Shown here piece by piece: positions 35,469 through 51,782 of a stretch of DNA of 64,000 nt (position 1 is the first letter of the stretch; each line of letters begins with the position of its first letter). The position numbers were made by a program, and so were the translations under genes. The stretch lies in the NCBI GenBank assembly GCA_026003215.1, contig BPGV01000001.1, forward strand, positions 89,570-153,569. Reading direction: 5' to 3'. The notes beneath the pieces were generated by a model that saw nothing but the letters and a program-made list of their open reading frames with translations, did not search any database and was not told where the DNA came from. The DNA is from Bacteroidia bacterium (lineage in GTDB: Bacteria; Bacteroidota; Bacteroidia; SpSt-205).

Positions 35469-38171
35469 TCACAGGATAAGGAAGCTTTCTTCGGCTTGGG
35501 GGCGTGCACGAGCGAAAAGAAGGCCTTTATCCTGCGTGTATTTCCACGCTGGGGGCAAAAAGGCATAATCCCGAGCAAACCGAGGCGCATCACGAAGGGG
35601 CTCACGGTCTCCTACCATATACTGGGGTAGGGAGACGGCGTACGGTTCATGTACTCGCTTCTGCCACCAGAGTCGCCTCGCCACAGAAGAAAGCTTTTTC
35701 TGCTGTGCAAGGGTTTTATATTCTTGTAGGGCTTCCTCTACCGCTTCTTTAAACTGAGCGGGGATGTACCAGCCGGCAGCTATGCGGCGGAAAATCTGCT
35801 GGGCTTCTTCGCGGGTGTCGCTCACCCAACCTCGCCTTGCCGCTTCCAGCGTTTGATAAAAAGCCTTCAAATAAGCCTTGCCTTCAGGGAGGCTAAGCGC
35901 TTCCTCCGAGTAGAGCAGCTCTACCCAAAGCTTCTTAGTTTTTTCACACAAAAGGCAAGCCGTAGTGGGATAAGTCAGCGGCATAATCCTTGCCCTTCCC
36001 TTCTTTTTTTCCTTCTTATCCTCATTTTCTTTTTCTTCATTCTCTGGTTCTTGGGGGCTTATCAGCGAAAGGAAAGTTTTTCGTATAGTGTTTTCAACGG
36101 CTTGTATGAGGTGCTCGCTCGGGTCACTTTTTGGGGGGTGTGGGCTTTCTGCTGGGGGTTTTATGGTTTCGCAGAGGACCTTAAGGCCTATAAGGGTATA
36201 AGCTAAAAGGAAAGATTTGTAAATTTTTCCGCTGCCGGAGGCCAGCTTATCGGGCTTGGCTTTGTCCGGATCCCAATAAAACCAGATATATACGTTGGGG
36301 GTCTCGGGCGGGGGCGGAGGGGTATGGCGCAAGGGAGCATGCTGGCGAGCTACTCGTCCCATGCGCTGGACTAAAGCATCTGCTGGCGCCAGTTCTGTAA
36401 AAAGCACATCGCCGTACAGGTCTAATGCCGCTTCTACTACTTGTGTTGCTACTAAAATGTGCGGCTTTTGTAAGGGAGGGCGCGCAGGACCCCAACTCTT
36501 CGTAAGAGCCTCTTCTTTCTCTCGCCTATCTTTCGCCGTAAATAAACTGTGCAGTAAATCTATCTCGGCAGTTGAGGAAAATCTTTTTTCCAACTCTTCG
36601 TACATGCGCATGGCTTGATGGCGGGTATTACATACTACTAAGATTCGAGGCTTGTGTGGTGGTGAAAGATAAGGCACGGCTACCTTCCCGGCTAATATGT
36701 CAGCAATCTTTTGGATTACCGTTTCAGGTATGGGGAAATCCTCCTTTGAGGTTGGAGTGCAGGGGAGGACTTCTACTTTATGCTTGCAGAAGGAGTCTAA
36801 GTTTGCGTAAAGGTCTATTTTTTCAGCGTTTAGGCTTTGCAGTTCTTTTTCTAAGAAGGGGGGGAGGGTGGCTGTGATGAGGAGGAATCTGCCCCCCAGA
36901 GAGGCTATATCCTCTAAGAGGCGTACAATCAAGGCTGCGGCTTGGGGGTCATAAGCTTGTACTTCATCTACGATGAGGGTGTGGGTTTGGAGCGTGGTGT
37001 AGATGCGTTCGTAGCCGGGGGGACGGAAGCTATAAGGAAAGATTTGGTCGCCTGTGGTGATGAGGGCAGGAAGGGCGAGATGGCGAGCGGTTTCGTAGTG
37101 GGCCAGAGCTACCTCTTCGGTGGTCTGCCGGGCTAAAGCCGTGAGGGCATCGCCGTACAAAAGACCCACTCGCTTACGCCCCCAGAGCCGTTCCGCTCGC
37201 CTAAAAGTTTGGAATACCGCTGCCCGTAAGGGAAGCGTATAGATGAATCGTCCCGGTGTGGCCCACAAAAAAGCTAACTCTGTCTTACCTGCTCCTGTGG
37301 GTGCTACTACTATAGCTGACTTTTTAGAGATAGCTTTTACCGTTTTGGACTGCCAGGCAGAGCCAGCACTTTTGTGGAGAAAGAAATACCGCAAGGGGGT
37401 TTGGGACAGGCGCGGTCGGTAGATTCCTCGGCGAAGGGACCTTATCCAGCCTTGTTCGTAGGCTGAGGCCCAGTGGTCTGCCCGTTGTAAGGTCCCCGCT
37501 AAGCTAATCCACAGCCGTACTTCCTCGGTGCTGAAGCCCAAGCGCTGGGGCAGCCATTCGTTTAGGTAGGGCGGTGGAGCCCAGTAGCTTAGGGAGAGGC
37601 CTGCGGCCAGCCCCCGTGCCAACGCTTCATTCCAGCCTATTCCCCGTTCTCCCAACTCTTTGCAGAGGAGTTCTTGGTACTTTTCTCGCAGGCGAGGGGT
37701 TTCTAAAAGACCTTGGACCAGCGAGCTGAGCTTATCCGGGGTGGCCACCTCTTCTTGGATACGGTCGCGCCAGTGGTGATAGGCTACTACGGAGAAAAGT
37801 ATTTGTCGGAGCCGTTCGTCGGGTAGATTAGAGTGCCCGAGCCGGGCGCGGAGGTATTCTACCGCTGCATTTATGGTGCCTTCGTCCATCCACAGCAGGG
37901 AAAAAAGCGAGTGCGGTACCTCTGGCAGTTTTTCCTGCAAGAGAGGCAGCCCAAAACGGAGAAAGTCCCCCTTCCCGGCCTTTTTATATAGGCGGGCTTG
38001 GAAGGGAGCGTGAACTTTGCCTGCATCATGCCATAGCGTGATATGTCGTAAAAGCGCTTTATCCCCCGGGGAAGCCCTGCGCAAAAGCGAGCGCGCAGCC
38101 AGCCACACATGACGCGTATGTCTACCAAGCGCAATAGGCGGGTCAGATTTAGCTAAAAGAAGACCCCTCAT
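35469..38171 (-). CDS. cas3: CRISPR-associated nuclease-helicase Cas3 (type I-B)
   Basis: A 900-residue protein that degrades target DNA after recruitment by Cascade. The N-terminal HD nuclease has H-D at 48-49 (ITLWHDAGKVHAPFQ). The superfamily 2 helicase has Walker A VVAPTGAGKTELA at 288-300, a Walker B variant DEVQAYD at 402 (Cas3 proteins usually have DExH), ITATLPP, and motif VI QRMGRVARQ. A Glu/Lys-rich insert (ENEEKENEDKKEKKKGRA) lies in the C-terminal region. The ATG at 38171 overlaps the cas5 stop as ATGA; a TTG further out (38183) is rejected. It is the last gene of the minus-strand operon. Confidence 0.95.
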   Translation of the reverse strand: MRGLLLAKSDPPIALGRHTRHVWLAARSLLRRASPGDKALLRHITLWHDAGKVHAPFQARLYKKAGKGDFLRFGLPLLQEKLPEVPHSLFSLLWMDEGTINAAVEYLRARLGHSNLPDERLRQILFSVVAYHHWRDRIQEEVATPDKLSSLVQGLLETPRLREKYQELLCKELGERGIGWNEALARGLAAGLSLSYWAPPPYLNEWLPQRLGFSTEEVRLWISLAGTLQRADHWASAYEQGWIRSLRRGIYRPRLSQTPLRYFFLHKSAGSAWQSKTVKAISKKSAIVVAPTGAGKTELAFLWATPGRFIYTLPLRAAVFQTFRRAERLWGRKRVGLLYGDALTALARQTTEEVALAHYETARHLALPALITTGDQIFPYSFRPPGYERIYTTLQTHTLIVDEVQAYDPQAAALIVRLLEDIASLGGRFLLITATLPPFLEKELQSLNAEKIDLYANLDSFCKHKVEVLPCTPTSKEDFPIPETVIQKIADILAGKVAVPYLSPPHKPRILVVCNTRHQAMRMYEELEKRFSSTAEIDLLHSLFTAKDRREKEEALTKSWGPARPPLQKPHILVATQVVEAALDLYGDVLFTELAPADALVQRMGRVARQHAPLRHTPPPPPETPNVYIWFYWDPDKAKPDKLASGSGKIYKSFLLAYTLIGLKVLCETIKPPAESPHPPKSDPSEHLIQAVENTIRKTFLSLISPQEPENEEKENEDKKEKKKGRARIMPLTYPTTACLLCEKTKKLWVELLYSEEALSLPEGKAYLKAFYQTLEAARRGWVSDTREEAQQIFRRIAAGWYIPAQFKEAVEEALQEYKTLAQQKKLSSVARRLWWQKRVHEPYAVSLPQYMVGDREPLRDAPRFARDYAFLPPAWKYTQDKGLLFARARPQAEESFLIL

Positions 38172-38947
38172 AACTTTTGCCAAAAGACAGGTAGGTTATA
38201 GTTTTCATCTATATACACATCAGGAAGGGGATAGGGTGTATCGCCTTCCCATAAAAAAACAGGAACTGTTTTCACTTGGCGAGCAGGGGGCTTATCTTGG
38301 GCCCACAAGGCCACGCGGTAAGGGGTACCCCGCAGCCCAGGAAAGCGTTGCATCTCTTTCCAAGGTATCCAGAAGCGCCACGACAGCTTACTCGGAGGTA
38401 AGTCTCCCTTCCTAAGGATGACCTCCTCTAAGGCGAGCGGGATCACCAGGTCCTCCGCCCGACCTAAATGAAGTATTTCGTGGGGTTGGGACTCGTAAAA
38501 AGCTTTCTTGAGCAGAGAAAGGTGGTCTGGAGTTTTTGTGCCCAAGTAGAGGAGGAGCTCTATTTTTTGGAGTACGAGGCTTGTGCGGGGGCTCTGTCCG
38601 CCAGGGTGCTCAGGTAAGCCCCACCGCATACGAGAAGGACGCCTTAAAGCTCGCTTAGAAGAGCGCCCCGCTGGGGCAGCTACAGCGCCAAAGTAATTCT
38701 CATGTTCTTCTTTAGCGAGATTGCGGGCCCAGGTGTACTCGGGCACCACACTCTCCCACCTCCCCGCAACCGCGATCTGCTCAAGCGGTAGGCTTAGTCC
38801 CACATCTGGATCATTGCCCAGCCAGTTTGTCAAAAAACCCAGCACCGTCGCATAGGGCGGTAGCGGATAGGTGAGGATCTTTTGATAAGCATAAGGTACG
38901 CGATAAAGGGCGGAGGGTTGGAGCAGTCTAAGCCGCAGAACTTTCAT
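38168..38947 (-). CDS. cas5: Cascade subunit Cas5 (type I-B)
   Basis: A 259-residue RAMP-fold subunit that caps the 5' handle of the crRNA. The N-terminus MKVLRLRLLQPSALYRVPYA with PLPPYATVLGFLTNWLG is the Cas5 family start. The C-terminal half is beta-rich (PYRVALWAQDKPPAR). It overlaps cas7 by 20 bp and cas3 by 4 bp, consistent with tight coupling in the operon. Placement between cas7 and cas3 is the type I-B order. Confidence 0.9.
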   Translation of the reverse strand: MKVLRLRLLQPSALYRVPYAYQKILTYPLPPYATVLGFLTNWLGNDPDVGLSLPLEQIAVAGRWESVVPEYTWARNLAKEEHENYFGAVAAPAGRSSKRALRRPSRMRWGLPEHPGGQSPRTSLVLQKIELLLYLGTKTPDHLSLLKKAFYESQPHEILHLGRAEDLVIPLALEEVILRKGDLPPSKLSWRFWIPWKEMQRFPGLRGTPYRVALWAQDKPPARQVKTVPVFLWEGDTPYPLPDVYIDENYNLPVFWQKL

Positions 38948-40124
38948 CGGGATAAAGAGAGACTATACGCTGCTTGAACTCTTCTTCGGATAGGCTCTCG
39001 GATTGTAGCGCACCCGGGCAGATGAAGTTCCACGGGCCATAAACGCCACTCACAAAAAGACCGCCCTCTTCGCTTTTGCGCAGATACCAGGGGTTATTCA
39101 GTACGTCTGGATGGAGAGGCAAAGGGCAAGTACCTTCTTGATTGGCAGGGATAGGCGGCCAAAAGAAATAGGGTTCTAAAATAGGTACGGGTACCTTAGT
39201 AAAAGCTGCAACAAAAGCCACAGGAACGAGCGTATTAGCTTCGCCGCTGGATTGGGCATATAATCCACCTCGTAAAGCTTCTATGAGCGCCAAGAGCCGA
39301 CGTCGGCGCCCCTCGGCCCTAAGCACAAACTGCACCTGATAGGGACCCGAAGCCATATCCTTTACAATTACCTTGCCATTAGGATGCTCATAAACATGGT
39401 CAGGGCCTTGGGAGGTTTTCTTCAATCCTGCAATAGTGAAGACCACTGATGAGCTTGTACTCTTAGATTTACTTTTTTTTCCTTGCTTTTGGGCTGTATC
39501 CTCTTCCTGTTCCGCTTGCTCCTGTTCTTTGTTCTTTTCTTTGGCTTCTACTTTGAATGCTACGTTGGTGTCGCTTGCTATTACTTCTGCTTTTGGTAAA
39601 ATCCATTCGTCTCGACCTAAGCGGTGGGTATCTATAACAAAATGTACCTTGTATAGGGAGGTATGTTCTTCTTTTTGGTAGGGATTAGGGGTAGATTCCA
39701 TGATTTTTGCCAATCGTTGTACGAGGTCATGATTGGCGTAGAAAGCCATATCGCCTGCGTAAGGGTAGAGGGAGATGGCTTTGGTGATGCCGACGACAGC
39801 CTTGCGGGTTAGGGTTCTGCCGGCGGTTTGCATATAGCCGAAAAGGTCTAACTCAGCATGGGTGAGGATAGAAGCTTGGGTAAGGTCAAACTGAATTACA
39901 TCACTGGTGGCTTGCAAGGGGGCTGGCTCCCATTCGGGTGCTTTCTCATGGTGGGCTAAGTACAAAGTCTGGAAGAGGTAATGCCGCAAAGCGGGCTTGC
40001 TTATAAAAGTATGTATGCGGTCTTGGTAGGTCAGTTTTTTTACAGACAGCACATTTTGCCCGATTTTTTCGTCTCTGTTGAGGGCATGGGCCCGATACAC
40101 TACGGTAATCGTCAAGTATCGCAT
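38928..40124 (-). CDS. cas7: Cascade backbone subunit Cas7 (Cst2/DevR type)
   Basis: A 398-residue backbone protein that polymerises along the crRNA spacer. It starts MRYLTITVVYRAHALNRDEK and contains LDLFGYMQTAGRTLTRKAVV, the Cas7b/DevR region. Residues about 194-226 (KEKNKEQEQAEQEEDTAQKQ then KSKSKSTSSS) form a low-complexity charged insert that looks like an expanded thumb or web loop. The rest is regular. cas5 starts 20 bp before its stop, so they are translationally coupled. Confidence 0.9.
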   Translation of the reverse strand: MRYLTITVVYRAHALNRDEKIGQNVLSVKKLTYQDRIHTFISKPALRHYLFQTLYLAHHEKAPEWEPAPLQATSDVIQFDLTQASILTHAELDLFGYMQTAGRTLTRKAVVGITKAISLYPYAGDMAFYANHDLVQRLAKIMESTPNPYQKEEHTSLYKVHFVIDTHRLGRDEWILPKAEVIASDTNVAFKVEAKEKNKEQEQAEQEEDTAQKQGKKSKSKSTSSSVVFTIAGLKKTSQGPDHVYEHPNGKVIVKDMASGPYQVQFVLRAEGRRRRLLALIEALRGGLYAQSSGEANTLVPVAFVAAFTKVPVPILEPYFFWPPIPANQEGTCPLPLHPDVLNNPWYLRKSEEGGLFVSGVYGPWNFICPGALQSESLSEEEFKQRIVSLYPDESSAA

Positions 40125-40128
40125 AGGC

Positions 40129-40617
40129 TTAGCTATTTACGGCACTTAAGAAGTGATATACCAAGAGTTGGGTTTCCTCTGGGTGGAAGGCAGGTGAAAA
40201 AGCATAGGCCAAGTTGCGGGGGAAGCCTCCTCCGTGAGCCATATAGGTGCGCAAGAGGAGATAAAATGCTTCTTCGCGTCGGCCAGCCCGCAGAAGCTCC
40301 ATGAGCCGAAACCCTATCTTTTCCAGCGACTCCCGAAGGGCAGGATGCCTGTTCTTTACCTTATAGCCTACCCCCTGCAAACGCTCCGCTATGCTGGTAA
40401 GCTCTTCTTCCTTCCCACTGGAGGGCAACATCATGCCCTTTTTATCAGCCAGGCTCCGAAGAATCCGATAGGTATGTTCTATTTTAGCAAGCTGTCTGCG
40501 CGCTTGCATTAGCGATTGATGTATCTCCTTAAGTTCGGATTTTTGGCGTTCTTCTGGTAGGCTGTACCACTTTTCCAGAAGGCCTTCTACTTTCTCTCGT
40601 AAGTTTTTCAGATCCAT
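40129..40617 (-). CDS. Probable Cascade small subunit (Cas11-like) or split Cas8 C-terminus
   Basis: A 162-residue, almost wholly helical protein, starting MDLKNLREKVEGLLEKWYSL with an ATG that overlaps the cas8 stop. Its C-terminal part (FYLLLRTYMAHGGGFPRNLA, then YAFSPAFHPEETQLLVYHFL) resembles the helical C-terminal region of Cas8b-type proteins. Adding its length to the upstream cas8 (385) gives a normal Cas8b size of about 550. In several type I systems the small subunit Cas11 is made from an internal start in cas8; here it seems to be a separate gene. I infer a Cas11-like role from position and fold only. Confidence 0.55.
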   Translation of the reverse strand: MDLKNLREKVEGLLEKWYSLPEERQKSELKEIHQSLMQARRQLAKIEHTYRILRSLADKKGMMLPSSGKEEELTSIAERLQGVGYKVKNRHPALRESLEKIGFRLMELLRAGRREEAFYLLLRTYMAHGGGFPRNLAYAFSPAFHPEETQLLVYHFLSAVNS

Positions 40618-41765
40618 AGACTATGGCTTTTTTGGATGGTGCGTATTTCTGTGGCTAAGATAAGGAGGTTTTGGGTTATAAAGGGCAGCCGTTCATAGGG
40701 TATATCTTTGAAAAAGTGTTTTAGAGCGGCTTCTTTACTATTTTTGAGGAGTTGGCTGCGCAGGGCGAGGTAGCTCAGGTGCTGTACGATGCCGAAGCGC
40801 CCTGCCAGCAAGGCCCGTACCAGCGCGGAAGAGCGCAGGCGGGCTAAAGCTTGCGTGACCTTCGGCCGTAAAAGAAGCCGTACTACCGCTGGCGAAAGAG
40901 TCACCGTTTCCACCGTTTCCCCTTGCCGATGAATAAGCTGTATGTTTTGAAATACCCATCCCCCCAGCATACGCTGGATTCGCAGGCTATATTCTACTAC
41001 AGAAGTGGCTAACAGCGGTAAAGCTTCTTGCTGTTCCGAAATCCCCTTAAGTAATCTATTCAAATGCCACATGAGCTTAAAGGAAGGCGCATTGATAAAC
41101 ACCTCACTGTTATCGCTCAGACGCGTAAAAGCCAAGTGGTGAAAGAGGATCGCCGTCAGGGCCGGGCGACTTAGGCGGAGGGTTCCCTCTTCGTGTAATC
41201 CCCTAAAAGCATTGGGAAAGCTGCTCTGGGCCGGAAAGAGCCACTGGAGGTTTCTAAGGTCTATGGGCTGCGTGACGTAGCGGGTCTCGCCTAAAAAAAG
41301 GCACGACTCGCGCCGACGCTTTTTTGGAGTAAAAACCGTCTCCCAAGAAAAAGTTTCAGCAAACTGGGAAGGGTTTGCCCACTTCCCCTCGCTGTGGTGG
41401 TACCAGTTTTGATAGGGGGCCTTGTTGCCGAAAAGGGAGGCGAGGGCCGCATAAAAGATTTTTCCCTCCTCTGTGCGGAAAGGACATTTAGGATTAGGTG
41501 GTGGGGGTATTTTGCCGGCGTGGTGGGCATGGTGCTGCACGAACCACCAGTGCAGCTGACGAAGCGGCCATAGCTCGTGAGTGGAGTCAAAAGCCGGCTC
41601 GCTCAAAGCGCTAAAAACACGCCGAAGTAGCCGCTTCCCCGCTAAGGTGCCCTCTTCACGTAGGAAGTCTTCTGGGCTGATGCCTTGTGAGGCGAATACC
41701 TCTAAAAGACCTATCATGCTTGCGTTGAAGAGCCAGTGCGAGGGGAGGATAGGCAGCTCTTTCAT
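40608..41765 (-). CDS. cas8b: Cascade large subunit Cas8 (Cst1-like, type I-B)
   Basis: A 385-residue large subunit, expected to recognise the PAM and start R-loop formation. The opening HWLFNASMIGLLEVFASQ is the Cas8b/Cst1 start. The middle has NWYHHSEGKWANPSQFAETF and PAQSSFPNAFRGL. Cst1 proteins usually carry two CxxC zinc-binding pairs here; only isolated cysteines (CPFRTEEG, CLFLGE) are seen, so the zinc site looks lost. It is short for the family, as if cut before the C-terminal domain, which the next gene supplies. It overlaps cas6 as ATGA. Confidence 0.8.
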   Translation of the reverse strand: MKELPILPSHWLFNASMIGLLEVFASQGISPEDFLREEGTLAGKRLLRRVFSALSEPAFDSTHELWPLRQLHWWFVQHHAHHAGKIPPPPNPKCPFRTEEGKIFYAALASLFGNKAPYQNWYHHSEGKWANPSQFAETFSWETVFTPKKRRRESCLFLGETRYVTQPIDLRNLQWLFPAQSSFPNAFRGLHEEGTLRLSRPALTAILFHHLAFTRLSDNSEVFINAPSFKLMWHLNRLLKGISEQQEALPLLATSVVEYSLRIQRMLGGWVFQNIQLIHRQGETVETVTLSPAVVRLLLRPKVTQALARLRSSALVRALLAGRFGIVQHLSYLALRSQLLKNSKEAALKHFFKDIPYERLPFITQNLLILATEIRTIQKSHSLWI

Positions 41766-42523
41766 AGGGCGGTTCCTTTCTCTAAGAATCCGAAGCCTTG
41801 GCTGCGGCGAACCCCTATGCCAGCTTGGTAGAGCAGCTGCAAGAGGGCCGGCGGCCCCGCCAAACGCAGAACCCCTTCACTGCCTGTCATGTACTGGCCA
41901 TAATGCCAGACGACTTGGGGGCGCAGCGCAGAAAAGTCGCACCGGCTCCACTCCAGCACCAGGCGCTGCCCTAAGAAGCTCTGGCTTAGTTCTCCCACTA
42001 AAAATTGTAGGGCTGCCTCAAATACCTCGTCCTGGGGCGTGAGGTAACGGTGCGGCGCTTGGGGATCCTTGACTAAAAAGGGCGAGAGGGTGCGAAAAAT
42101 CCCCTCCTCTTGCGCAAAGGGCGGCGCGGGCGGATGCACTCGCAGCCGTTGTAGGGAAAACTCCCACTGTTTGCGCCAAGCATGGCTTCTGCGGGCTTGC
42201 CCCCAGCGCACAAAAGCATTGAGCACCTCTACCCCTATCCTCTCATCCGCAAACGAGAAGTTCCACCATGCCTGCGAGCCCGCCCGTAAATACGAGGTCT
42301 CCGCATTAGGCCCCTTTTCTATGGGATGGTTTCGGTCTAACCGCGGAAAATACACCGAAAAACAAAACGGCTTTTTGACTTTGCTTTGGTAAAATAGCCG
42401 AAATACGGAAGGGTTATAGCGCTTGAGCACAGCCTTAAGAAAAGAAGCAAACCCTTGCCTATAATCTAAGGGAAGCAGTCCTGGGTGTTCGCTGGCTATG
42501 CCTACGTGTAAAGAAAAGCGCAT
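41762..42523 (-). CDS. cas6: CRISPR repeat endoribonuclease Cas6
   Basis: A 253-residue RAMP endoribonuclease that cuts the array transcript in the repeat to give crRNAs. The C-terminal Gly-rich loop GIGVRRSQGFGFLEKGTAL is diagnostic. The N-terminus is MRFSLHVGIASEHPGLLPLD. The start at 42523 is chosen over a TTG nine bases upstream because TACTTTTG lies 6 nt before it. It is first in the interference operon, divergent from cas4. Confidence 0.9.
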   Translation of the reverse strand: MRFSLHVGIASEHPGLLPLDYRQGFASFLKAVLKRYNPSVFRLFYQSKVKKPFCFSVYFPRLDRNHPIEKGPNAETSYLRAGSQAWWNFSFADERIGVEVLNAFVRWGQARRSHAWRKQWEFSLQRLRVHPPAPPFAQEEGIFRTLSPFLVKDPQAPHRYLTPQDEVFEAALQFLVGELSQSFLGQRLVLEWSRCDFSALRPQVVWHYGQYMTGSEGVLRLAGPPALLQLLYQAGIGVRRSQGFGFLEKGTAL

Positions 42524-42529
42524 GCTGGG

Positions 42530-42537
42530 CAAAAGTA
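42530..42537 (-). promoter_or_regulatory. -7 promoter element of the type I-B interference operon
   Basis: TACTTTTG on the minus strand, 6 nt before cas6. On the other strand TATTTTG (42559-42565), one base short of the consensus, lies 5 nt before cas4, so both operons probably fire from this 47-bp gap. Confidence 0.6.
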
Positions 42538-42570: not shown

Positions 42571-43086
42571 ATGCGGTGGTGGGAGATTGCCGGACATGAA
42601 GTAGAGTCTTTTGCGGCTTGTCCCCGCCAGTACTGGTTTTTGAGTCGGGGCCTCCGCATGGAACCCTTTTCGGAGCTGGTACAAGATGGGCGTTTGGTAA
42701 GTGAGACGGCTTACCCTGCTTGGCCGGCCTCTCGCAAACAGGTGAGGATAGGGCGCCTCAAGATAGACGGACTCGACCCACACCACAAGCGCTTATATGA
42801 GGTGAAGCGTGCCGCCCGCTTGGTGCAGGCCCACAGAATGCAACTACTTTTTTACCTCTGGGTGCTGGAGAAGCTGGGCTGGGAAGGATTTCAAGGCGTG
42901 CTTTTGTATCCCCGTGAGAAAAAACGCATAGAAGTTTTGCTTACGCCAGAGGGGCGTGTAGCGGTGACGAAGCTGCTTCGGGCTCTGGTGGCGGTTCGGC
43001 GGGCAAAGCAGCCCCCACCCCTCCAAAAAAAGCCCTTCTGCAAACACTGCGCTTATAAAGACCTTTGCTGGTTAGAGGAACTATGA
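42571..43086 (+). CDS. cas4: CRISPR-associated exonuclease Cas4
   Basis: A 171-residue PD-(D/E)XK protein with a Fe-S cluster, which helps trim prespacers and select PAM and orientation. The nuclease core is IDGLDPHHKRLYEVKRAAR (Asp and E-x-K). The cluster cysteines are in the N-terminal FAACPRQYWF and the C-terminal FCKHCAYKDLCW. The stop overlaps the cas1 start (ATGA). Its presence next to cas1-cas2 indicates an active-type adaptation module. Confidence 0.93.
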   Translation: MRWWEIAGHEVESFAACPRQYWFLSRGLRMEPFSELVQDGRLVSETAYPAWPASRKQVRIGRLKIDGLDPHHKRLYEVKRAARLVQAHRMQLLFYLWVLEKLGWEGFQGVLLYPREKKRIEVLLTPEGRVAVTKLLRALVAVRRAKQPPPLQKKPFCKHCAYKDLCWLEEL

Positions 43087-44075
43087 AGAAAGTGCTATAC
43101 CTTACCCAAAGCGGTAGGTTATTTCGTCGCCAGCATACCTTATGCTGGCAAGCCACCCAGAGTGCGGAAGCTCGGTTCCTGCCTATTGAGACCTTAGGCG
43201 AAATCTACGCTTTAGGACCTGTGCGCCTTAGCACCACTGTTTTACGCTTTTTAGGCGAGAAGCGCATACCTTTTCATGTTTTTAGCTATTACTTGCATTA
43301 CCGCGGTACTTTTTTGCCAAAAGGGTATATTGTCTCTGGGCAGGTGCGGCTTCGCCAGGCGCGGCATGCCTTAGATCGGAAGAAGCGCTTAGAGATAGCC
43401 CGGCGCTTTGTGCTGGGAGCGATAGGGGGGATGCAGCGCAACTTAGCCTATTATCTGAACAGAGGCAAGGGGGTAGAGCCCGCTTTGACAGAACTTTCCG
43501 CTTGGGAAAAGGAAGTGCGGGCGGCTTCTACGCTTCAGGCGGTGATGGGCTGTGAAGGCAGTGCCCGCCGTGCATACTATGGGGCTTTTGGAGCTATTCT
43601 CACGGGGTGGTCTTGGGCTGGACGCACCAAACGCCCGCCTACGGACCCCGTAAATGCCCTTCTTTCCTTCCTAAATAGCCTTACTTATGCGGCAGTCTTA
43701 GGGCAGCTGTACCATACGCCCTTGGACCCAGTCATAGGCTTTTTGCATGCACCCGGCCGAGGACGCTTTCCTTTGGCTTTAGACCTGGCGGAGATTTTCA
43801 AGCCGCTTTTGGCGGACCGGCTCCTTTTTCGCCTCCTCAACCGGCAGGAGATTACAGCTACCGATTTTGACCCGCTTGTACAGGGGTTGCGCTTGCGCCC
43901 AGAGGCTTTACGGAAGGTCCTCCAAGCCTGGGAAGCCAAACTTAGCGAAACTTTTTACCACCGTACCCTTCAGCGGCAGGTGAGCTACCGCTACCTCATC
44001 CGCTTAGAAGCCTATAAACTCATGAAGCACCTCTTGGAGATAGCTTCTTACGAACCTTTTCGGCCTTGGTGGTGA
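43083..44075 (+). CDS. cas1: CRISPR integrase Cas1
   Basis: A 330-residue integrase that joins new spacers to the leader end of the array. The metal-binding triad is intact: Glu in VMGCEGSARRAYYG, His in VIGFLHAPGRGRFPL, and Asp in LALDLAEIFKP. The start at 43083 overlaps the cas4 stop and is preferred over a TTG at 43065. Together with cas2 it would make the integration complex. The off-target-like event at 11402 is consistent with activity of such a complex. Confidence 0.95.
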   Translation: MKKVLYLTQSGRLFRRQHTLCWQATQSAEARFLPIETLGEIYALGPVRLSTTVLRFLGEKRIPFHVFSYYLHYRGTFLPKGYIVSGQVRLRQARHALDRKKRLEIARRFVLGAIGGMQRNLAYYLNRGKGVEPALTELSAWEKEVRAASTLQAVMGCEGSARRAYYGAFGAILTGWSWAGRTKRPPTDPVNALLSFLNSLTYAAVLGQLYHTPLDPVIGFLHAPGRGRFPLALDLAEIFKPLLADRLLFRLLNRQEITATDFDPLVQGLRLRPEALRKVLQAWEAKLSETFYHRTLQRQVSYRYLIRLEAYKLMKHLLEIASYEPFRPWW

Positions 44076-44078
44076 GCT

Positions 44079-44342
44079 ATGTATGTGATTTTGGTATATG
44101 ATGTAGCGCAGACCCGTGTGGCACGGGTGCTCCGAATTGGTCGCCGTTATCTCTCGTGGGTTCAAAACTCGGTATTGGAGGGGGAGCTATCGGAGGTGCA
44201 GCTTCGGGAGCTCCTCCATGCGCTGGGGAAGGTGATAGATGAGACTCAGGATAGTGTGATTATATTCAAGTTTAGGCAGGAAAAGTGGGTAGATCGGGTG
44301 GTTATCGGGCGAGAAAAAGGAGGGACAGATTTTATTTTATGA
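44079..44342 (+). CDS. cas2: CRISPR adaptation protein Cas2
   Basis: An 87-residue ferredoxin-like protein bridging two Cas1 dimers. MYVILVYDVAQTRVARVLRI holds the conserved Asp at position 8. The rest (YLSWVQNSVLEGELSEVQLR) is typical. It begins 3 nt after cas1 and ends 165 bp before the first repeat, which places the leader immediately downstream. Confidence 0.95.
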   Translation: MYVILVYDVAQTRVARVLRIGRRYLSWVQNSVLEGELSEVQLRELLHALGKVIDETQDSVIIFKFRQEKWVDRVVIGREKGGTDFIL

Positions 44343-44507
44343 GAGTCGTCGAAGGGTAGGGGTTTAGGGAGGGATAGGGGGCAGACGATGCGGGCTGCAG
44401 GGGGGGTACAGAAAAAGAGGGGGAAGAAGATAAGATTTTCTTTACCTTTGCGTACTGCTTAGCAGGTTATTGGTTCTTTGAGGCTTTTAGGGAAAGGGAG
44501 GGGGTGA
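44343..44507 (+). promoter_or_regulatory. CRISPR leader with array promoter
   Basis: The 165-bp purine-rich sequence between cas2 and the first repeat. TACCTTTG at 44443-44450 is a good -7 element, so the pre-crRNA should begin about 50 nt before the first repeat. It ends GAGGGGGTGA against the repeat. Orientation is set by this leader and by the degenerate repeat at the far end. Confidence 0.75.
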
Positions 44508-46307
44508 GTTTTTATCGGCCCATTATGGAGTGGAAACTCGTTAGCAGCTCTTGCAAGCGCTCTGCGTAGCGGTTTTTATCGGCCCATTATGGAGTGGAAA
44601 CTCGTCTGCCTTCAAGCGCCACGCTGCGCGAAGTTTTTATCGGCCCATTATGGAGTGGAAACTCATGCACGCTGCCATCCACTGTGCCCGCGTTTTTATC
44701 GGCCCATTATGGAGTGGAAACCTATCGTGAGGTGTCACTGTCGGCTCACGGCCAGTTTTTATCGGCCCATTATGGAGTGGAAACTAGGTATAGCCTTGTA
44801 CAAGAAATATGGCAATCGTGCGTTTTTATCGGCCCATTATGGAGTGGAAACCCTAAAAAAAGGCCTGTTAGGGCCGCCCATGCATAGGTTTTTATCGGCC
44901 CATTATGGAGTGGAAACCGCTCGCGTAGAGCTGCAGCGTGTAAAGCTCATTGCGTTTTTATCGGCCCATTATGGAGTGGAAACAACGTGACCACCTGCCC
45001 CACCAGGCCGGACCACGTGGGTTTTTATCGGCCCATTATGGAGTGGAAACAGGAACATTCGAACTTGGAAGGGATATTGCAGTGTTGCGTTTTTATCGGC
45101 CCATTATGGAGTGGAAACATCAAAAATTCTACGCAATCGCCCAAAACCTCATACGTTTTTATCGGCCCATTATGGAGTGGAAACCTGGCCAAAAAGGCGA
45201 GACTGGTACCCGGGGAAACAAGTTTTTATCGGCCCATTATGGAGTGGAAACTTCTTGAACGCTTTACTATCAAAGCGCTCGCTTTCTATGTTTTTATCGG
45301 CCCATTATGGAGTGGAAACGGCTGCAAGTAGCAAAAAACCAGAAGCTCCTACAAGGTTTTTATCGGCCCATTATGGAGTGGAAACATACGCCGAAAGCCC
45401 AGCATCCCCGCGCGGTCTATGTTTTTATCGGCCCATTATGGAGTGGAAACCCATTCCGTAATTCTGTAATGTTTCCGTAGATTGTTGGTTTTTATCGGCC
45501 CATTATGGAGTGGAAACTGGTTTACCATTAATGTATTCACGTACAGTCTCATAGTTTTTATCGGCCCATTATGGAGTGGAAACGGATCTGTATTTGCTCA
45601 CTTACAGCAACTTCAGTTTTTATCGGCCCATTATGGAGTGGAAACACTATCTGTAAGCAAACCTACCCGTACGCGTATTGCGTTTTTATCGGCCCATTAT
45701 GGAGTGGAAACTGGTTGTCGAGATGGATTAGGGTGGTATCCCACCCGGGTTTTTATCGGCCCATTATGGAGTGGAAACAGCGTTGCGAGGTAATACTCGA
45801 AAGGACGCACAATGTTTTTATCGGCCCATTATGGAGTGGAAACGCACCTCTGCCGTTGCCGCGTGTCCAACAGCGGACTCGTTTTTATCGGCCCATTATG
45901 GAGTGGAAACTACCCTTGGCGTAGAGCGACCAGGCAAAGTGGCCGAGTTTTTATCGGCCCATTATGGAGTGGAAACTTCTTCTGCGCTTCTCAGCGCTTC
46001 TACGACTTGCGCAGTTTTTATCGGCCCATTATGGAGTGGAAACGCAATCTTGAGGTGTCCAGCTGTGGCATCAAGGCCCAGTTTTTATCGGCCCATTATG
46101 GAGTGGAAACTAGTTTCGCCGAAGCCACGCCCCGACGACCTTATCGGTTTTTATCGGCCCATTATGGAGTGGAAACATTTGATGCAGGCCGTATGTGCTA
46201 TTCAGAAACCATGTTTTTATTGGCCCATTATGAAGTGGAAACGTTGGGTTTTCACATCTAAGAATGAGATGGACCGCGTTTTTATCGGCCCATTATGGAG
46301 TGGAAAC
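44508..46307 (+). CRISPR. Type I-B CRISPR array, 28 repeats and 27 spacers
   Basis: The repeat is 30 bp, beginning GTTTTTATCGG and ending GGAGTGGAAAC. Spacers are 29-38 bp, most often 36-37. By eye all repeats are identical except the 27th (46213-46242), which has two substitutions (TTGGCC for TCGGCC and TGAAG for TGGAG). The 28th is perfect, which is unusual at the leader-distal end. Because unit lengths are near 66, chance reading frames run through the array. No spacer matches were seen by eye elsewhere in the window. The following sequence is cmr3 coding sequence with no trailer. Confidence 0.98.
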
Positions 46308-46644
46308 CGCCTCAACGGACGTCTTACTTACGCCGGCGTGGTTTGAGGGGGGATGGCGGCCCCAAGAGGGGTGGCAGAAGCTTTTACCAGGCTGTACCCT
46401 ATGCAGTGTCGCCCACCAGCGCCTGGAGAGGCAGCATGCTTTTATCAAGAAGAATGGCCATCCCTTGGCGTACTTCTTCTCTTTTGTGCCTGCGGGCACG
46501 GTCTATTTTTTTGAGTGTGCGGGAAGCCCAGGGGAAGGCCTACCCGACGCTTTTACCGAAGAGCCAAAAGTAGGAGAGGAGGTTATTCCGCTTAAGGATT
46601 TAGGATTTGGGTTGTATGTCGTCTCATCTTGGGAATATGTCTAA
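46308..46644 (+). pseudogene. cmr3: Cmr3 C-terminal fragment abutting the CRISPR array
   Basis: About 112 codons remain, beginning directly after the last repeat. LLTPAWFEGGWRP and FVPAGTVYFFECAG correspond to the conserved C-terminal segments of Cmr3 (TPA.F..GW and VPAGSVY.F); it ends GFGLYVVSSWEYV. The N-terminal two thirds, which contact the crRNA 5' handle, are missing, and the frame has no start of its own other than inside the array. It overlaps cmr4 by 8 bp. A deletion or recombination joining the array to cmr3 is the simplest explanation; an assembly join is the alternative. Confidence 0.8.
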
Positions 46645-47566
46645 GCAAGGCTTCATACTTTGGTTGTATGTGGAGACTCCGCTGCATGCTGGGGTAGGGC
46701 AGGGGATAGGAGATATTGATTTGCCTTTGCAGCGGGAACGTTCTACGGGGTTTCCGTATGTACAAGCCTCGGGCATCAAGGGGGCTATGCGTGCCCACTG
46801 TGCCGAAAACCTGGAAGCTTCCAAGGTAGAGGTCCTTTTTGGCCCAGATACCCAATCGGCCCACGAACATGCGGGGGCTTTGAGCTTGAGCGATGCGCGC
46901 TTATTGCTTTTTCCGGTGCGTTCTCTGGCAGGGGTGTGGGCTTGGATTACTTGTCCCAAGGTTCTCTCTCGCTTCCTATCCGACGCTAAGCGGGTAGGGC
47001 TATCTCTTTCTTTGCCCGAGCCGCCCTCTCCGCTTTCTCCGGGTGAGGCTATTTTTTCCCAGGAGGGGGCTGAGGTAGTTCTCTCCGCTAATGGGAGAGG
47101 GGACCTGGTAGTATTAGAGGACTTAGCTTTTACACGAAGCTCCCTTTCGGAGTCCTTTTTACCTCAATGGACGGAATTTCTGGCAGAGAGGGCTTTTCCC
47201 AAAGAACCGGGGTACTGGCGGGAAAACCTGCGAAAGCATCTGGTGATTTTATCGGACGAAGACTTTCAGTTTTTTGTGGAGCATGCCACGGAGGTGCTTA
47301 CGCGGGTGCGTATTGAGCCTGAGACCAAGACGGTGCAGGAAGGGGCCTTATGGACGGAGGAGCTTTTGTCCAGTGAGTCGCTTTTGTACTGCGCAGGGGT
47401 GGTAGAGCCTGCCCACAAACCCCAAGAAGATGGGGGCAGTGCTTCCGCAGAGGACCTTTTGAAGAAGTTCAGAAGCTGTTTGACGGAGCACCCTTATTTA
47501 CAGGTAGGTGGAGATCGTACCTTGGGACGGGGCTGGTGCTTTGCTCAAATCACTGCTGCGTTATGA
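46637..47566 (+). CDS. cmr4: Type III-B backbone nuclease Cmr4
   Basis: A 309-residue RAMP backbone subunit that cuts target RNA at 6-nt intervals. LHAGVGQGIGDIDLPLQRER and STGFPYVQASGIKGAMRAH match the Cmr4 core. Asp26 and Asp28 lie in the catalytic loop. The ATG at 46637 overlaps the cmr3 stop and is preferred to one at 46616. The remainder is colinear, ending in a Gly-rich GGDRTLGRGWCF loop. The gene looks intact even though its upstream partners are missing. Confidence 0.9.
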   Translation: MSKQGFILWLYVETPLHAGVGQGIGDIDLPLQRERSTGFPYVQASGIKGAMRAHCAENLEASKVEVLFGPDTQSAHEHAGALSLSDARLLLFPVRSLAGVWAWITCPKVLSRFLSDAKRVGLSLSLPEPPSPLSPGEAIFSQEGAEVVLSANGRGDLVVLEDLAFTRSSLSESFLPQWTEFLAERAFPKEPGYWRENLRKHLVILSDEDFQFFVEHATEVLTRVRIEPETKTVQEGALWTEELLSSESLLYCAGVVEPAHKPQEDGGSASAEDLLKKFRSCLTEHPYLQVGGDRTLGRGWCFAQITAAL

Positions 47567-47982
47567 AAGCCCAATTAGAGTTTTTGGCTCGGAGTCGTGC
47601 AGCGCATGCGCATGCAGCCATCCAAGCCCTTCTCCTAAAGCGACGGGCCGCGAAGGAATACAAAGGTCTTATTCGTCGGTTTCCGTCGTTGGTGCGCACT
47701 GCGGGGTTAGGACAGGCTTTAGCCTTTTTGGCTTCCAAAGCTTCCTCGGCTCCTGAAAGGGCCAATAACCCGCATCACTGGCTTGCAAATACCCTATGGG
47801 ATTGGTGGCGGCAAAGTCCCCTCGGTCCTTCTGCCTCAACAGCCGCTTCCTTTTTGGATTGGATTGTGCGAGAAAGCACCCTCGTAACTTACCGAAAAGC
47901 TACCCAGGAAGTATTGGCCTACCTTTTTTGGCTAAAACGGTTTGCTGAAGCTTTTATCCCCGATGAAACTACCCATGAGTAA
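47563..47982 (+). CDS. cmr5: Type III-B small subunit Cmr5
   Basis: A 139-residue helical protein forming the minor filament of the Cmr complex. Helices include MKAQLEFLARSRAAHAHAAI and STLVTYRKATQEVLAYLFWL, the latter matching the conserved C-terminal Cmr5 helix (Y...A.E...YL.WLKR). It overlaps cmr4 by 4 bp (ATGA) and cmr6 by 20 bp. Confidence 0.88.
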   Translation: MKAQLEFLARSRAAHAHAAIQALLLKRRAAKEYKGLIRRFPSLVRTAGLGQALAFLASKASSAPERANNPHHWLANTLWDWWRQSPLGPSASTAASFLDWIVRESTLVTYRKATQEVLAYLFWLKRFAEAFIPDETTHE

Positions 47983-49126
47983 GGAGGATTCTCGTAGTGG
48001 ATATTACCCTTTTCCGCAACCTCTTCGAGAAAAGCTCGGGGAGTTTTTAGGGCGAGATGGGAGCAAGTCGCTTTTCGTGAATCTGGGTTTGTGGAGCCAG
48101 CGCTTTGTAGAGTGGCAGGAGGAGAGAGAAGGTAGAAAGGTAGCGCAAATAGAAGCGCGAAGCAGAGGGTATGGGTTTATTCAGCAGAGACAGTGGGGAG
48201 CGTACAGGGAGCTTTTGCGTGCGTATTGTGAGCGGATGAAGCGTTTAGTGAGGGCGAGGGGGGGCAAGGTATTTGTATATGCGCTTAGGAGCCGGATGGT
48301 AATAGGATTAGGGGGGGCAGATGTGCGGGAGGTAGGCTTTAGTTTTCATCGAATGGGTTTCCCGTATGTGCCTGCATCTTCGCTAAAGGGGCTAACGCGG
48401 GCGGCCGCTTTGCTTCTGTGTCACTCCTCTCAGGAAGAGGTAGATGCGCTGCTGGGGGCTTCCGTCTCAGAGGAGGGACAAGCCGGTCAAGTCCTCTTTT
48501 TAGATGCTATACCCTTTCTCTCTCCAGAGGATAAAGCTTTACTGGAGGTGGATGTGCTCAATCCCCACTTTCCTGACTATTACCAGCAGGAGGGAAAAAC
48601 GGAGCCCACCGAGTGGCAGGACCCCAATCCGATTTTCTTTTTAGGGGTGCCGGCGGGCACGGCGTTTTGTTTTGGCCTTATAGGAGAGCAGTCTCGGGTG
48701 GAGCGGGTAGGGGCGTGGTTGGAGCGGGGGCTGCGTGAGCTCGGCATAGGCGCTAAAACCACCTTGGGGTACGGGCTGTGGGAGGTACCCAGAGAGCTTG
48801 ACGGACGCAGTCAGCTTTCCCTAGGGTTAAGAGAACCTAAGGAAGGGCCTGCCTCCGAGACTCCGCAAACAAAGCCTTCTCCCGAAAGCGCGCCTCCTCT
48901 TGAGCCTCGAGACAAGGTGCGGGTCGGGGCCCGGCTCCGAGCGCGAATCCTGGAAGGAGCCTCGGGTCGTCAAGGACTATGGGTCACCCTCTTAGTAGAA
49001 GGCCTATGGGAGCAACGGGTCTTTTGTGAGCAGGTGGCCAGCACTTTTAGACACGAAGGCCTCATAGAAGTGGAAGTGACACAGGTTCAGCCAGAAATAC
49101 GCGTAAGATTCAAGAAGCCCCTATGA
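47963..49126 (+). CDS. cmr6: Type III-B RAMP subunit Cmr6
   Basis: A 387-residue RAMP capping subunit. RMVIGLGGADVREVGFSFHR and GFPYVPASSLKGLTRAAALL are the Cmr6 core; GAKTTLGYGLWEVP is the Gly-rich loop. An extra C-terminal segment of about 110 residues follows a Pro/Glu linker and carries an S1/OB-like beta-rich domain (DKVRVGARLRARILEGASGR). That is longer than usual for Cmr6. A start at 47975 is also possible. It is coupled by ATGA to the CARF-HEPN gene. Confidence 0.88.
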   Translation: MKLPMSKEDSRSGYYPFPQPLREKLGEFLGRDGSKSLFVNLGLWSQRFVEWQEEREGRKVAQIEARSRGYGFIQQRQWGAYRELLRAYCERMKRLVRARGGKVFVYALRSRMVIGLGGADVREVGFSFHRMGFPYVPASSLKGLTRAAALLLCHSSQEEVDALLGASVSEEGQAGQVLFLDAIPFLSPEDKALLEVDVLNPHFPDYYQQEGKTEPTEWQDPNPIFFLGVPAGTAFCFGLIGEQSRVERVGAWLERGLRELGIGAKTTLGYGLWEVPRELDGRSQLSLGLREPKEGPASETPQTKPSPESAPPLEPRDKVRVGARLRARILEGASGRQGLWVTLLVEGLWEQRVFCEQVASTFRHEGLIEVEVTQVQPEIRVRFKKPL

Positions 49127-50403
49127 AAAGTCTCATAGCTTTTTTAGGTACTGGCCCATATGAGGAAATCTGTTACCGCTATCCTCTACCAAGTGGGGAA
49201 AGTAAGCCGATTGGCCCCAGCAAATTTGGGTTTTTGGCGATAGCTGAGGGGTGGAAAGCCGATAGAATAGACCTATTTACTACGAAGGAGGCTTCGGAAC
49301 GGCACCGAGCGGAAGTAGAAACACAAGCGGATCGTCTGACTCCAAAACCAGAAATAAGGTTCTTAGAAGTGGAGGAAGCAGGGCATCCCACGAAGTTGTG
49401 GGGTGTGTTTGAGAAGATAGGAGAGGCTCTTGGCGAGGGTCAAGAGGTAGCTGTGGATATCACGCATGGGTTTCGGTCGTTTCCGCTGGTGGGGTTAGCG
49501 GCGCTGGCCTACTTCAAACACCTTAGAGGACTACATGTAGCCCACATTTGGTATGCGGCGTTTATTAAGCCAAGGGAAGAGCAAGACAGGCAGCAGGAAT
49601 GCCCCTTGATAGACTTGGGAATTTATTTGGAGGTGATGGAGCTTATATGGGCTGTGCGGCAGTGGCGCGAGCGTGGCGAACTCTCCCCCGTCGCTAACTT
49701 ATTTCGTCAGGCTCAAAAGCAGTACTATACAGAATCGAAGAAAGACCCACGCCTGGGTACTCTGGGAAGAGCCTTAGAACAGCTGTCAGGAGCGTTGCGC
49801 TTGGTTCAGCCGCAGCTGGTAACTAAGTACGGCAGGGCTGTCTCAGACGCTTTTCGAGAGGCCGAAGCGAAAGACCTATACAAGGAGCTTCCCTCCATAA
49901 AGAGTCTATGGGATAATCTCGCAAAAGATATACAAGAGCTAAGTAGGCCGGCAGAAGCATGGGAGGATGCGCTTGCTCAGCAGCTAAGCCTGATAGAGGA
50001 TTATGTTGAGTGGAAGGCCTATTTGCCAGCGGTGTTATTAGCGCGGGAATGGCTCGTTACCGCTTGGATGGGTGCGGGGGCAAAGTGGCAAAAGAAAGAA
50101 GCCCGACAAGAGGCTGAGAAGCAGTTGGGGGAGTTGCTTCAAAAAAAGCAACAAAAAAAGGCAAATCTCTTATCTTATCTGCTGTTTCTTTTGTTTTTGT
50201 TGCCTCAAAGAAAGCGACAAAAAAAGGCAAACCTATCCAAGAGAGAAGAGCTTTTTAGCGAAGCATGGGGAGCTATCCATGCCATACGAAACAGGCTTGC
50301 CCACTGCGGCATGGGAGAGCAGAATCAGTCTATACCCGTAAAGGAAGAGCAAATGAAAGAGATTGTAGAAAAACTACGAAAGGTGTATCAGGAGTTAATC
50401 TAA
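49123..50403 (+). CDS. CARF-HEPN ribonuclease of the TM1812/Csx1-type family
   Basis: A 426-residue protein. The N-terminal CARF domain begins MKSLIAFLGTGPYEEICYRY and contains VDITHGFRSFP at 111-121, the ligand-binding motif of the TM1812 family. The C-terminal HEPN nuclease has R389 and H394 in IRNRLAHCGM. Such proteins degrade RNA when bound by cyclic oligoadenylate made by Cas10. Cas10 is not in this window, so the activator must come from elsewhere or the protein is idle. At about residues 338-370 an unusual hydrophobic insert (NLLSYLLFLLFLLPQRKR) lies between two diverged direct repeats. Confidence 0.88.
   Translation: MKSLIAFLGTGPYEEICYRYPLPSGESKPIGPSKFGFLAIAEGWKADRIDLFTTKEASERHRAEVETQADRLTPKPEIRFLEVEEAGHPTKLWGVFEKIGEALGEGQEVAVDITHGFRSFPLVGLAALAYFKHLRGLHVAHIWYAAFIKPREEQDRQQECPLIDLGIYLEVMELIWAVRQWRERGELSPVANLFRQAQKQYYTESKKDPRLGTLGRALEQLSGALRLVQPQLVTKYGRAVSDAFREAEAKDLYKELPSIKSLWDNLAKDIQELSRPAEAWEDALAQQLSLIEDYVEWKAYLPAVLLAREWLVTAWMGAGAKWQKKEARQEAEKQLGELLQKKQQKKANLLSYLLFLLFLLPQRKRQKKANLSKREELFSEAWGAIHAIRNRLAHCGMGEQNQSIPVKEEQMKEIVEKLRKVYQELI
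50137..50234 (+). repeat. Imperfect 32-bp repeat flanking a 34-bp insert inside the CARF-HEPN gene
   Basis: 50137-50168 and 50203-50234 match at 28 of 32 bases; the four differences are all transitions. They are separated by 34 bp (50169-50202). The 66-bp net addition is in frame, adding 22 residues. Low-complexity A-runs are included, so slippage or duplication is also plausible. Confidence 0.6.
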
Positions 50404-50513: not shown

Positions 50514-51782
50514 TTACGGCAGTAGGAGGAGTTTTTGGGTGGCGTTTCCTATACGCAGGAGGTAGAGGCCGGGTTGGCTGGGGAGAGTAAGGTGTAGGCC
50601 GCTGGTAGGAATGTCGCCGTGACTTATCAGACGGCCGGAGAGGTCCCACAGCGCATAAGTGCTGCCCCAGCGGCTGTCTAAAAAGGCCCTCGTGCCCGCT
50701 TGCAGCGGCGTGGGCAGGAATGCCGCCGAAGAGAAGCCTCCCACCAGAGCCGAAGGCGCAGAGCGCTGGATGTAGTGATAGCGCTCGCGGCTCACGGGCC
50801 CACAGGCAGGAGGGGTAGCCGAGGCATTGCACGTATCATGCTGCGCAACCAAAGTATTCCAGTGGGCATCGTAGGTGTATTGATTGCGTGCGTAGCTCCA
50901 CTCTGAGGACCCATAGTCATATGTAGCACTACTATCGTGAGAAGGTTTAGGCGCATTGCCCGCATAGAAGTACCATGTATTACCCGCTTGAGCTGGTGAA
51001 CACGAGCCGATGCAAAACCAAAAAGTATCTTGCTGTCTTACCAGCCGGGATTGGGCATCATAATAGTATGTACTAAAACCAGCACCGTATGCGCCAGGGA
51101 AAGGTACCCCTAAAGCCGCAAGGTCTACCCATATGTAAGTAGAGTCTATGCCTGAGGCCGTAAAGTAGTTGTAGATTTTTATGGCTGTTACCCACTGGTT
51201 CTGGGTTGTGTCATATTGGGCGAGATGCACGCTATCTGCTTGTTGGCTACTGAGCAAAGCGGGTGAGCCCCAGGCAGTAGTACGACCGTCGGCTACCCAC
51301 TTGGTACCATTATAACTACTATCTATCATTTCGCCTTTCCAGTAGTTAGCGTTTATGGCGGTGAAGTAAAAAGCGGTCTTACCTAACAGCAGAAGGTTAC
51401 CATTGCCCACGGTATCCTCATAATAGAGGTAAAGCGAGTCGGCTCCCTGGAAGGTGCCCGTGGTATAGTAGTAGTACTGGGTAGTGCTTTGAGCTTCCCA
51501 CTGGGAGCCTGCTTTAACATACAGGGTTTCTTTGTCTATTTGATTGTCGGAGCGATAGAGGTAGGTGGTAAGTTCCCTTTCTTGCCAGTTTCCGTTTCGG
51601 AAGGTGTCTACCCACATGCTATCGGGGAGCCATACGGTATTGGTGGTGCGGGCATAAGAGGGGATGAGGGCACCAGACAAGGTTTGCCATTTTTTCTCCA
51701 AGGTTTCTTTGAGGGGCCTCCAAGAAAGGCCTTGCTGCGCCCATAGGGCGCAGAGACTGAGGAGTATCGCTGCGTGCTTCAT
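50514..51782 (-). CDS. Secreted protein with T9SS C-terminal sorting domain, paralogue-like
   Basis: A 422-residue protein with the signal peptide MKHAAILLSLCALWAQ. The body is Tyr/Ser/Asp-rich, with repeated YYYDAQSRLVRQQDT- and NQYTYDAHWN-like motifs reminiscent of YD repeats. The tail (GSTYALWDLSGRLISHGD ... GLYLLRIGNATQKLLLLP) is a T9SS type A sorting domain. The overall plan and several phrases match the protein at 715-2022, so both are likely members of one family. TACCTTTG is 8 nt before the start. Function unknown. Confidence 0.75.
   Translation of the reverse strand: MKHAAILLSLCALWAQQGLSWRPLKETLEKKWQTLSGALIPSYARTTNTVWLPDSMWVDTFRNGNWQERELTTYLYRSDNQIDKETLYVKAGSQWEAQSTTQYYYYTTGTFQGADSLYLYYEDTVGNGNLLLLGKTAFYFTAINANYWKGEMIDSSYNGTKWVADGRTTAWGSPALLSSQQADSVHLAQYDTTQNQWVTAIKIYNYFTASGIDSTYIWVDLAALGVPFPGAYGAGFSTYYYDAQSRLVRQQDTFWFCIGSCSPAQAGNTWYFYAGNAPKPSHDSSATYDYGSSEWSYARNQYTYDAHWNTLVAQHDTCNASATPPACGPVSRERYHYIQRSAPSALVGGFSSAAFLPTPLQAGTRAFLDSRWGSTYALWDLSGRLISHGDIPTSGLHLTLPSQPGLYLLRIGNATQKLLLLP

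Follow-up and report, generated by a model that had tools for sequence, protein, structure and literature searches.

Why does a type III-B cmr operon begin inside its cmr3 gene, exactly at the last repeat of a type I-B CRISPR array? We analyzed this locus in a 64,000-nucleotide stretch of DNA from a Bacteroidia bacterium (referred to as the window), which corresponds to positions 89570-153569 of a single contig of 2,268,343 bases. The genome is 99.04% complete and 0.04% contaminated. The array belongs to a neighboring type I-B cluster in which cas8b, cas7, cas5 and cas6b are present together with cas4-cas1-cas2. NCBIfam families were matched for cas5 (TIGR01895), cas7 (TIGR02585) and cas6 (TIGR01877), and Cas8b and Cas6b were identified by PADLOC. 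The array is still served by this I-B system. The features of the locus are given in Table 1.

Table 1. Features of the type I-B cluster, the array and the truncated cmr operon (positions in the window).
Feature	Position	Strand	Basis or detail
Type I-B effector genes cas3, cas5, cas7, unassigned ~162 aa ORF (small-subunit position), cas8b, cas6b	35469..42532	-	
cas3	35469-38183	-	ORF translation only (helicase motifs)
cas4	42571-43086	+	PADLOC Cas4b, E 6.9e-43
cas1	43083-44075	+	PADLOC Cas1b, E 2.1e-116
cas2	44079-44342	+	PADLOC Cas2b, E 2.1e-35
Presumed leader, cas2 to first repeat	44343..44507	+	Inferred from cas2 adjacency and repeat orientation (3' end ...GAAAC)
CRISPR array	44508..46307	+	28 repeats of 30 nt, 27 spacers of 29-38 nt
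Junction of repeat 28 (last base) and cmr3-derived sequence (first base)	46307..46309	+	
cmr3 3' remnant (last ~111 aa, C-terminal domain)	46308..46644	+	Cmr3 profiles, same-genus alignment, AlphaFold model
cmr4 (309 aa)	46637-47566	+	TIGR02580, 223 bits (cut-off 87); PDB Cmr4 9arw, E 2.2e-55
cmr5	47563-47982	+	TIGR01881, 51.8 bits (cut-off 27.9)
cmr6 (about 383 aa, C-terminal extension)	47975-49126	+	TIGR01898, 122.8 bits (cut-off 51.1)
csx1-like CARF-HEPN gene	49123-50403	+	PADLOC CARF_HEPN, residues 2-424, E 3.2e-72; DxTHG TIGR02549

The repeat consensus of the array is GTTTTTATCGGCCCATTATGGAGTGGAAAC. Repeat 27 is degenerate, with two mismatches, and repeat 28 (46278-46307) is perfect. An earlier interpretation, made from the letters of this DNA without database searches (the sequence-only reading), claimed that cmr3 codons directly follow the last repeat. 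Indeed, no spacer is present beyond repeat 28, and the in-frame cmr3 codons start immediately: the junction reads ...GAA ACC GCC TCA ACG GAC GTC TTA CTT ACG CCG, encoding ET/ASTDVLLTP, and the frame across it is ET/ASTDVLLTPAWFEGGWRPQ..., with the slash marking the junction. The codons GCC TCA from position 46309 are those present at the aligned place in cmr3 of Bacteroidia SKW103, a member of the same genus. The observation that the operon is cut at the array end is real. Chance alone would place a junction precisely at the end of a repeat in roughly 1 in 66 cases per repeat unit, and the exactness is therefore suggestive only, and too little to claim a special mechanism.

The PADLOC Cmr3 models (positions 236-324 of 324, E 1.3e-11) match the truncated gene from residue 5 past the repeat almost to the end of its frame, and residues 262-374 of the same-genus Cmr3 (374 aa) align to the fragment with an E-value of 1.8e-20. 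About 70% of the protein is thus missing, close to the two thirds estimated earlier. The fragment matched no NCBIfam family. The AlphaFold model of the Cmr3 tail has a mean pLDDT of 83.5, and its six best PDB matches are all solved Cmr3 chains (Foldseek E 0.004-0.08, probability 0.99-1.00), none of which reaches an E-value of 0.001. The junction falls right where the C-terminal domain has its first predicted strand (residues 15-21 of the model). The frame of the tail is open back through repeat 28 to an ATG at 46264 in spacer 27, and a GTG at 46300, inside the last repeat, is also in frame; a fusion protein of 114-126 aa starting at either codon is possible, and it may keep translational coupling to cmr4. 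The array repeat itself is open in all three frames.

The genes downstream were described in the sequence-only reading as intact, tightly overlapped and free of decay. All four (cmr4, cmr5, cmr6 and csx1) are uninterrupted frames, and the overlaps are 8 nt for cmr3/cmr4, 4 nt for cmr4/cmr5, 8 nt for cmr5/cmr6 and 4 nt for cmr6/csx1. Cmr4, Cmr5 and Cmr6 each score above their NCBIfam cut-offs, and in the alignment the conserved Asp in GDIDLPLQRE of Cmr4 is present. The translation of the csx1-like gene contains the DITHG (CARF) and RNRLAH (R-x4-H, HEPN) motifs, so that the predicted protein, with a CARF domain and a HEPN R-x4-6-H motif, would be a CARF-HEPN ribonuclease of the Csx1/Csm6 type. 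Chance is no concern for the gene identities at the locus. We then assessed decay at the alignment columns that are conserved in at least 90% of the other homologues. Deviations were found at 2 of 38 such columns in Cmr4, none of 11 in Cmr5 and 1 of 28 in Cmr6, which is within the range of the other homologues; there is no excess of changes at conserved sites. The conservation of these three predicted proteins fits recent loss, or selection that still continues. In the Cmr3 tail, 3 of 11 conserved columns deviate, and only 2 of 47 other homologues show as high a fraction; given the few sites, this weakly suggests that the tail may be under relaxation. A promoter scan detected no promoter-like site on the + strand from the array to csx1, the counts being near the shuffled expectation. 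The Cmr6 protein is long, with about 100 residues past the Cmr6-model match (window 48800-49126); Cmr6 of another genome, G051, has an N-terminal extension instead.

The absence of the 5' part of the operon extends to the whole genome. The cas10 gene was not found in the 2.27 Mb contig with TIGR02577, with a same-genus Cas10 or with a profile of 11 Cas10 proteins; the profile gave nothing at E-values up to 10, and in the same search it detected Cas10 in SKW103 (G009; E 0) and G051 (E 6.8e-58). Similarly, a RAMP family search of the genome for cmr1 returned cmr4 and cmr6 only, and a nine-protein Cmr1 profile matched SKW103 only and nothing in the genome containing the window (G000). The N-terminal part of Cmr3 was not found in the genome with the same-genus Cmr3 as query, and no second array with the I-B repeat is present anywhere in it. 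Thus, family, protein and profile searches agree with the earlier claim that cmr1 and cas10 are missing. The sequence-only reading had left a choice between a remnant and a 5' half located elsewhere, possibly beside another array with the same repeat; the first option is favored, and the second is not supported, since neither the missing genes nor such an array were found in this single-contig genome. Because its signature gene cas10 (cmr2) was tested for and is absent, the locus does not qualify as functional type III-B; cmr1 is also absent, and of the 374 residues of a full-length Cmr3 only the last ~111 are encoded.

The genome does contain a second CRISPR locus near 1.636 Mb (G000:C1:1636073-1637065; L029 12068-16363), which comprises a cas3-like gene, cas1, cas4 and a 36-repeat array with the core GTGAAAATCGCACCAATGTGGG. 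Its repeat differs from the I-B repeat, and no type III gene was detected there by ORF reading or RAMP search. A 118-repeat array in a relative (G002) has a closely similar repeat on the opposite strand (core ATTTCAATCCCACATTGGTGCG).

Among the 11 genomes of the genus, cmr4 was found in three: the one containing the window, G008 and SKW103. The cmr4 contigs of the latter two are short (6.0 and 3.7 kb), and that of G008 starts within cmr4. The SKW103 contig (JANZYW010000091) encodes the 3' end of cmr1, cas10 (952 aa), a full cmr3, cmr4, cmr5 and the start of cmr6, within which it ends, before any csx1 position. It shares with the window the order cmr3-cmr4-cmr5-cmr6, the same ATGTCTAA overlap between cmr3 and cmr4, and a Cmr4 that is about 56% identical. 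However, in the window a CRISPR repeat takes the place of the cas10, full-length cmr3 and cmr1 3' end of SKW103. The cmr1 3' end of SKW103 (L015 1-465) lies in two frames (matches at 11-343 and 259-465, one TGA), which is explained either by a frameshift or by an error in this contig of low coverage.

To place the window in a wider context, we surveyed 50 named loci fetched by Cmr4 similarity. In 44 of them cas10 and cmr3 are located upstream of cmr4, in agreement with the gene order proposed previously, to which the window is an exception. The other six comprise four loci cut by contig edges (L078, L100, L101 and L110) and two in which cmr1 directly precedes cmr4 and the 3' side is cut off (L104 and L122). 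No other array-fused Cas10-less operon was present among the 50 loci. In L104 (8609-12206) and L122 (2912-4125) there is no cas10 or cmr3 between cmr1 and cmr4, and the contigs end soon after; these loci either have a different gene order or are themselves truncated operons. In G051, a gene of 459 aa, possibly CARF-containing and nuclease-like, lies between cmr3 and cmr4 (L017 1394-2773). The gene following csx1 in the window (50514-51782) was considered as a marker of the site and rejected: its homologues are only 26-39% identical and occur at several places in some genomes.

In Cmr complexes, the Cas10-Cmr3 pair recognizes the 5' handle of the crRNA, Cmr4 and Cmr5 form the body, and Cmr6 and Cmr1 form the other end (PMC5965380). 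Csx1 is stimulated by cA4, which is made by Cas10 (PMC7192623). Without Cas10, no cyclic oligoadenylate can come from this system, a point already made in the sequence-only reading that holds according to known Cmr biology, and there is no Cas10-Cmr3 pair for the 5' handle. Therefore, a normal Cmr complex is not expected, and Csx1 should stay unstimulated. It has been argued that loss of signaling leads to the loss of ancillary proteins (reviewed in PMC6452270), and hence the intact csx1 gene points to a recent loss or to a remaining use. The best reading is that the remnant would be inactive as a Cas10 signaling system.

Together, we consider that the locus is the remnant of a recent deletion in a type III-B operon that became fused to the I-B array, with a probability of about 0.72. 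One deletion, estimated from the relatives at about 5 kb, would have removed cmr1, cas10 and the first ~70% of cmr3, with its left end at a repeat end in the I-B array and its right end inside cmr3. It probably also took the former leader-distal end of the array. Polymorphisms are common at the 3' ends of terminal repeats, which rarely rearrange (reviewed in PMC8047081), and in the arrays of the relatives G002 and G010, which have a sister repeat, the last repeats are degenerate and are followed by unrelated genes. The perfect last repeat in the window, by comparison with these degenerate ends, suggests that it was formerly internal and that the array end was lost with the deletion. It was probably a single, recent event of the illegitimate type, joining non-homologous ends. 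That the operon was once intact at exactly this spot is inferred, as we found no strain-level relative that lacks the deletion. Afterwards, read-through from the array may drive transcription of cmr4-cmr6 and csx1; if it does not, these genes would be heading to decay. Microhomology at the junction is not demonstrable: SKW103 cmr3 reads GTC AAC GCC TCA and the junction GAA ACC GCC TCA, and in codon register only scattered bases are shared before GCC TCA. Known spacer-repeat deletions likewise preserve a repeat boundary, but they join repeat to repeat (PMC8047081), whereas one end here lies in a repeat-free protein-coding gene. Self-targeting was considered as a cause and rejected, as no convincing spacer match, and no exact match longer than 15 nt, was found in the window, the SKW103 operon or the other fetched loci. 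Two features of the locus run against the deletion: the retention of four genes, with their overlaps and active-site motifs, could likewise reflect selection, and an exact repeat end combined with a position at a domain edge is tidier than a random break need be.

An assembly artefact, in which the array and the cmr operon were wrongly joined and the reads covering cmr1, cas10 and the 5' part of cmr3 were left out, is unlikely. The junction does lie at the end of a sequence that is present 27 times identically, and the relatives' operons are on short contigs, so the region may assemble poorly. However, collapse of a repeat needs a repeat beside cmr3, and the best ungapped match to the I-B repeat in the SKW103 operon is 17 of 30 positions; a chimeric read or forced join would be required, in a genome that forms one contig and has the completeness and contamination values given above.

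The intact state of cmr4-cmr6 and csx1 could also be explained if a plasmid or other replicon outside the assembly encoded cas10, cmr1 and a full cmr3 for the chromosomal Cmr4-6 and Csx1. Plasmid-borne type III-B Cas10 genes exist, in the collection mostly in cyanobacteria and Thermus. However, the genome has no cas10, no plasmid record resembles the stretch, and a complete system on a plasmid would come with cmr4-6 of its own, which makes complementation in trans improbable. The same low probability applies to a working Cas10-free derivative, in which Cmr4, Cmr5 and Cmr6, with or without the Cmr3 C-terminal domain, would bind I-B crRNAs and cut RNA, and Csx1 would act alone or on other nucleotide signals. 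The kept active-site motifs and gene overlaps would suit such a derivative, as would the Cmr3 tail, which is predicted to form a compact domain and whose open frame has possible start codons (ATG or GTG) inside the array. Against it stand the loss of Cas10 and of the N-terminal part of Cmr3, the occurrence in one genome only, the lack of a second such operon in the survey and the deviations in the Cmr3 tail.

It is very improbable that a Cas1-Cas2 half-site event joined a chromosomal DNA end inside cmr3 to the spacer-side repeat edge and thereby amputated the neighboring operon; the argument for it is one of geometry, as other DNA is joined directly to the 3' edge of the repeat, as in spacer-side integration. 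Finally, the array-mediated rearrangement proposed earlier, taken here as relocation of the 5' half through homologous recombination between repeats, draws on the view that arrays recombine between repeats (PMC8047081), but it is already largely refuted for this assembly: with no second array, no 5' half elsewhere and no repeat-like sequence in the intact SKW103 operon, repeat-repeat recombination is hardly credible.

The locus is real and unusual, and most likely reflects a recent deletion that disabled the system, not a novel type of defense. None of the papers considered on Cas10-less type III loci, some of them by title and abstract, describes an array-fused truncation. A related case is type IV, whose reduced class 1 loci arose by gene loss (PMC6452270) and likewise lack catalytic or signaling parts of the effector module; however, type IV forms a stable lineage carried mostly on plasmids, whereas the window holds a single truncated operon that keeps the signaling effector gene csx1. 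As a deletion remnant, the locus would be a snapshot of Cas10 signaling lost in one step, with the backbone and the ribonuclease effector surviving. If several strains share the junction, they would allow a direct test of whether the orphaned Cmr4-6 and Csx1 decay neutrally or keep a Cas10-free role. Elsewhere in the window (13200-13800) lies a run of imperfect tandem repeats in coding sequence, each roughly 75 bases long (TATGATGGGGCGGATG...), perhaps encoding a repetitive surface protein.
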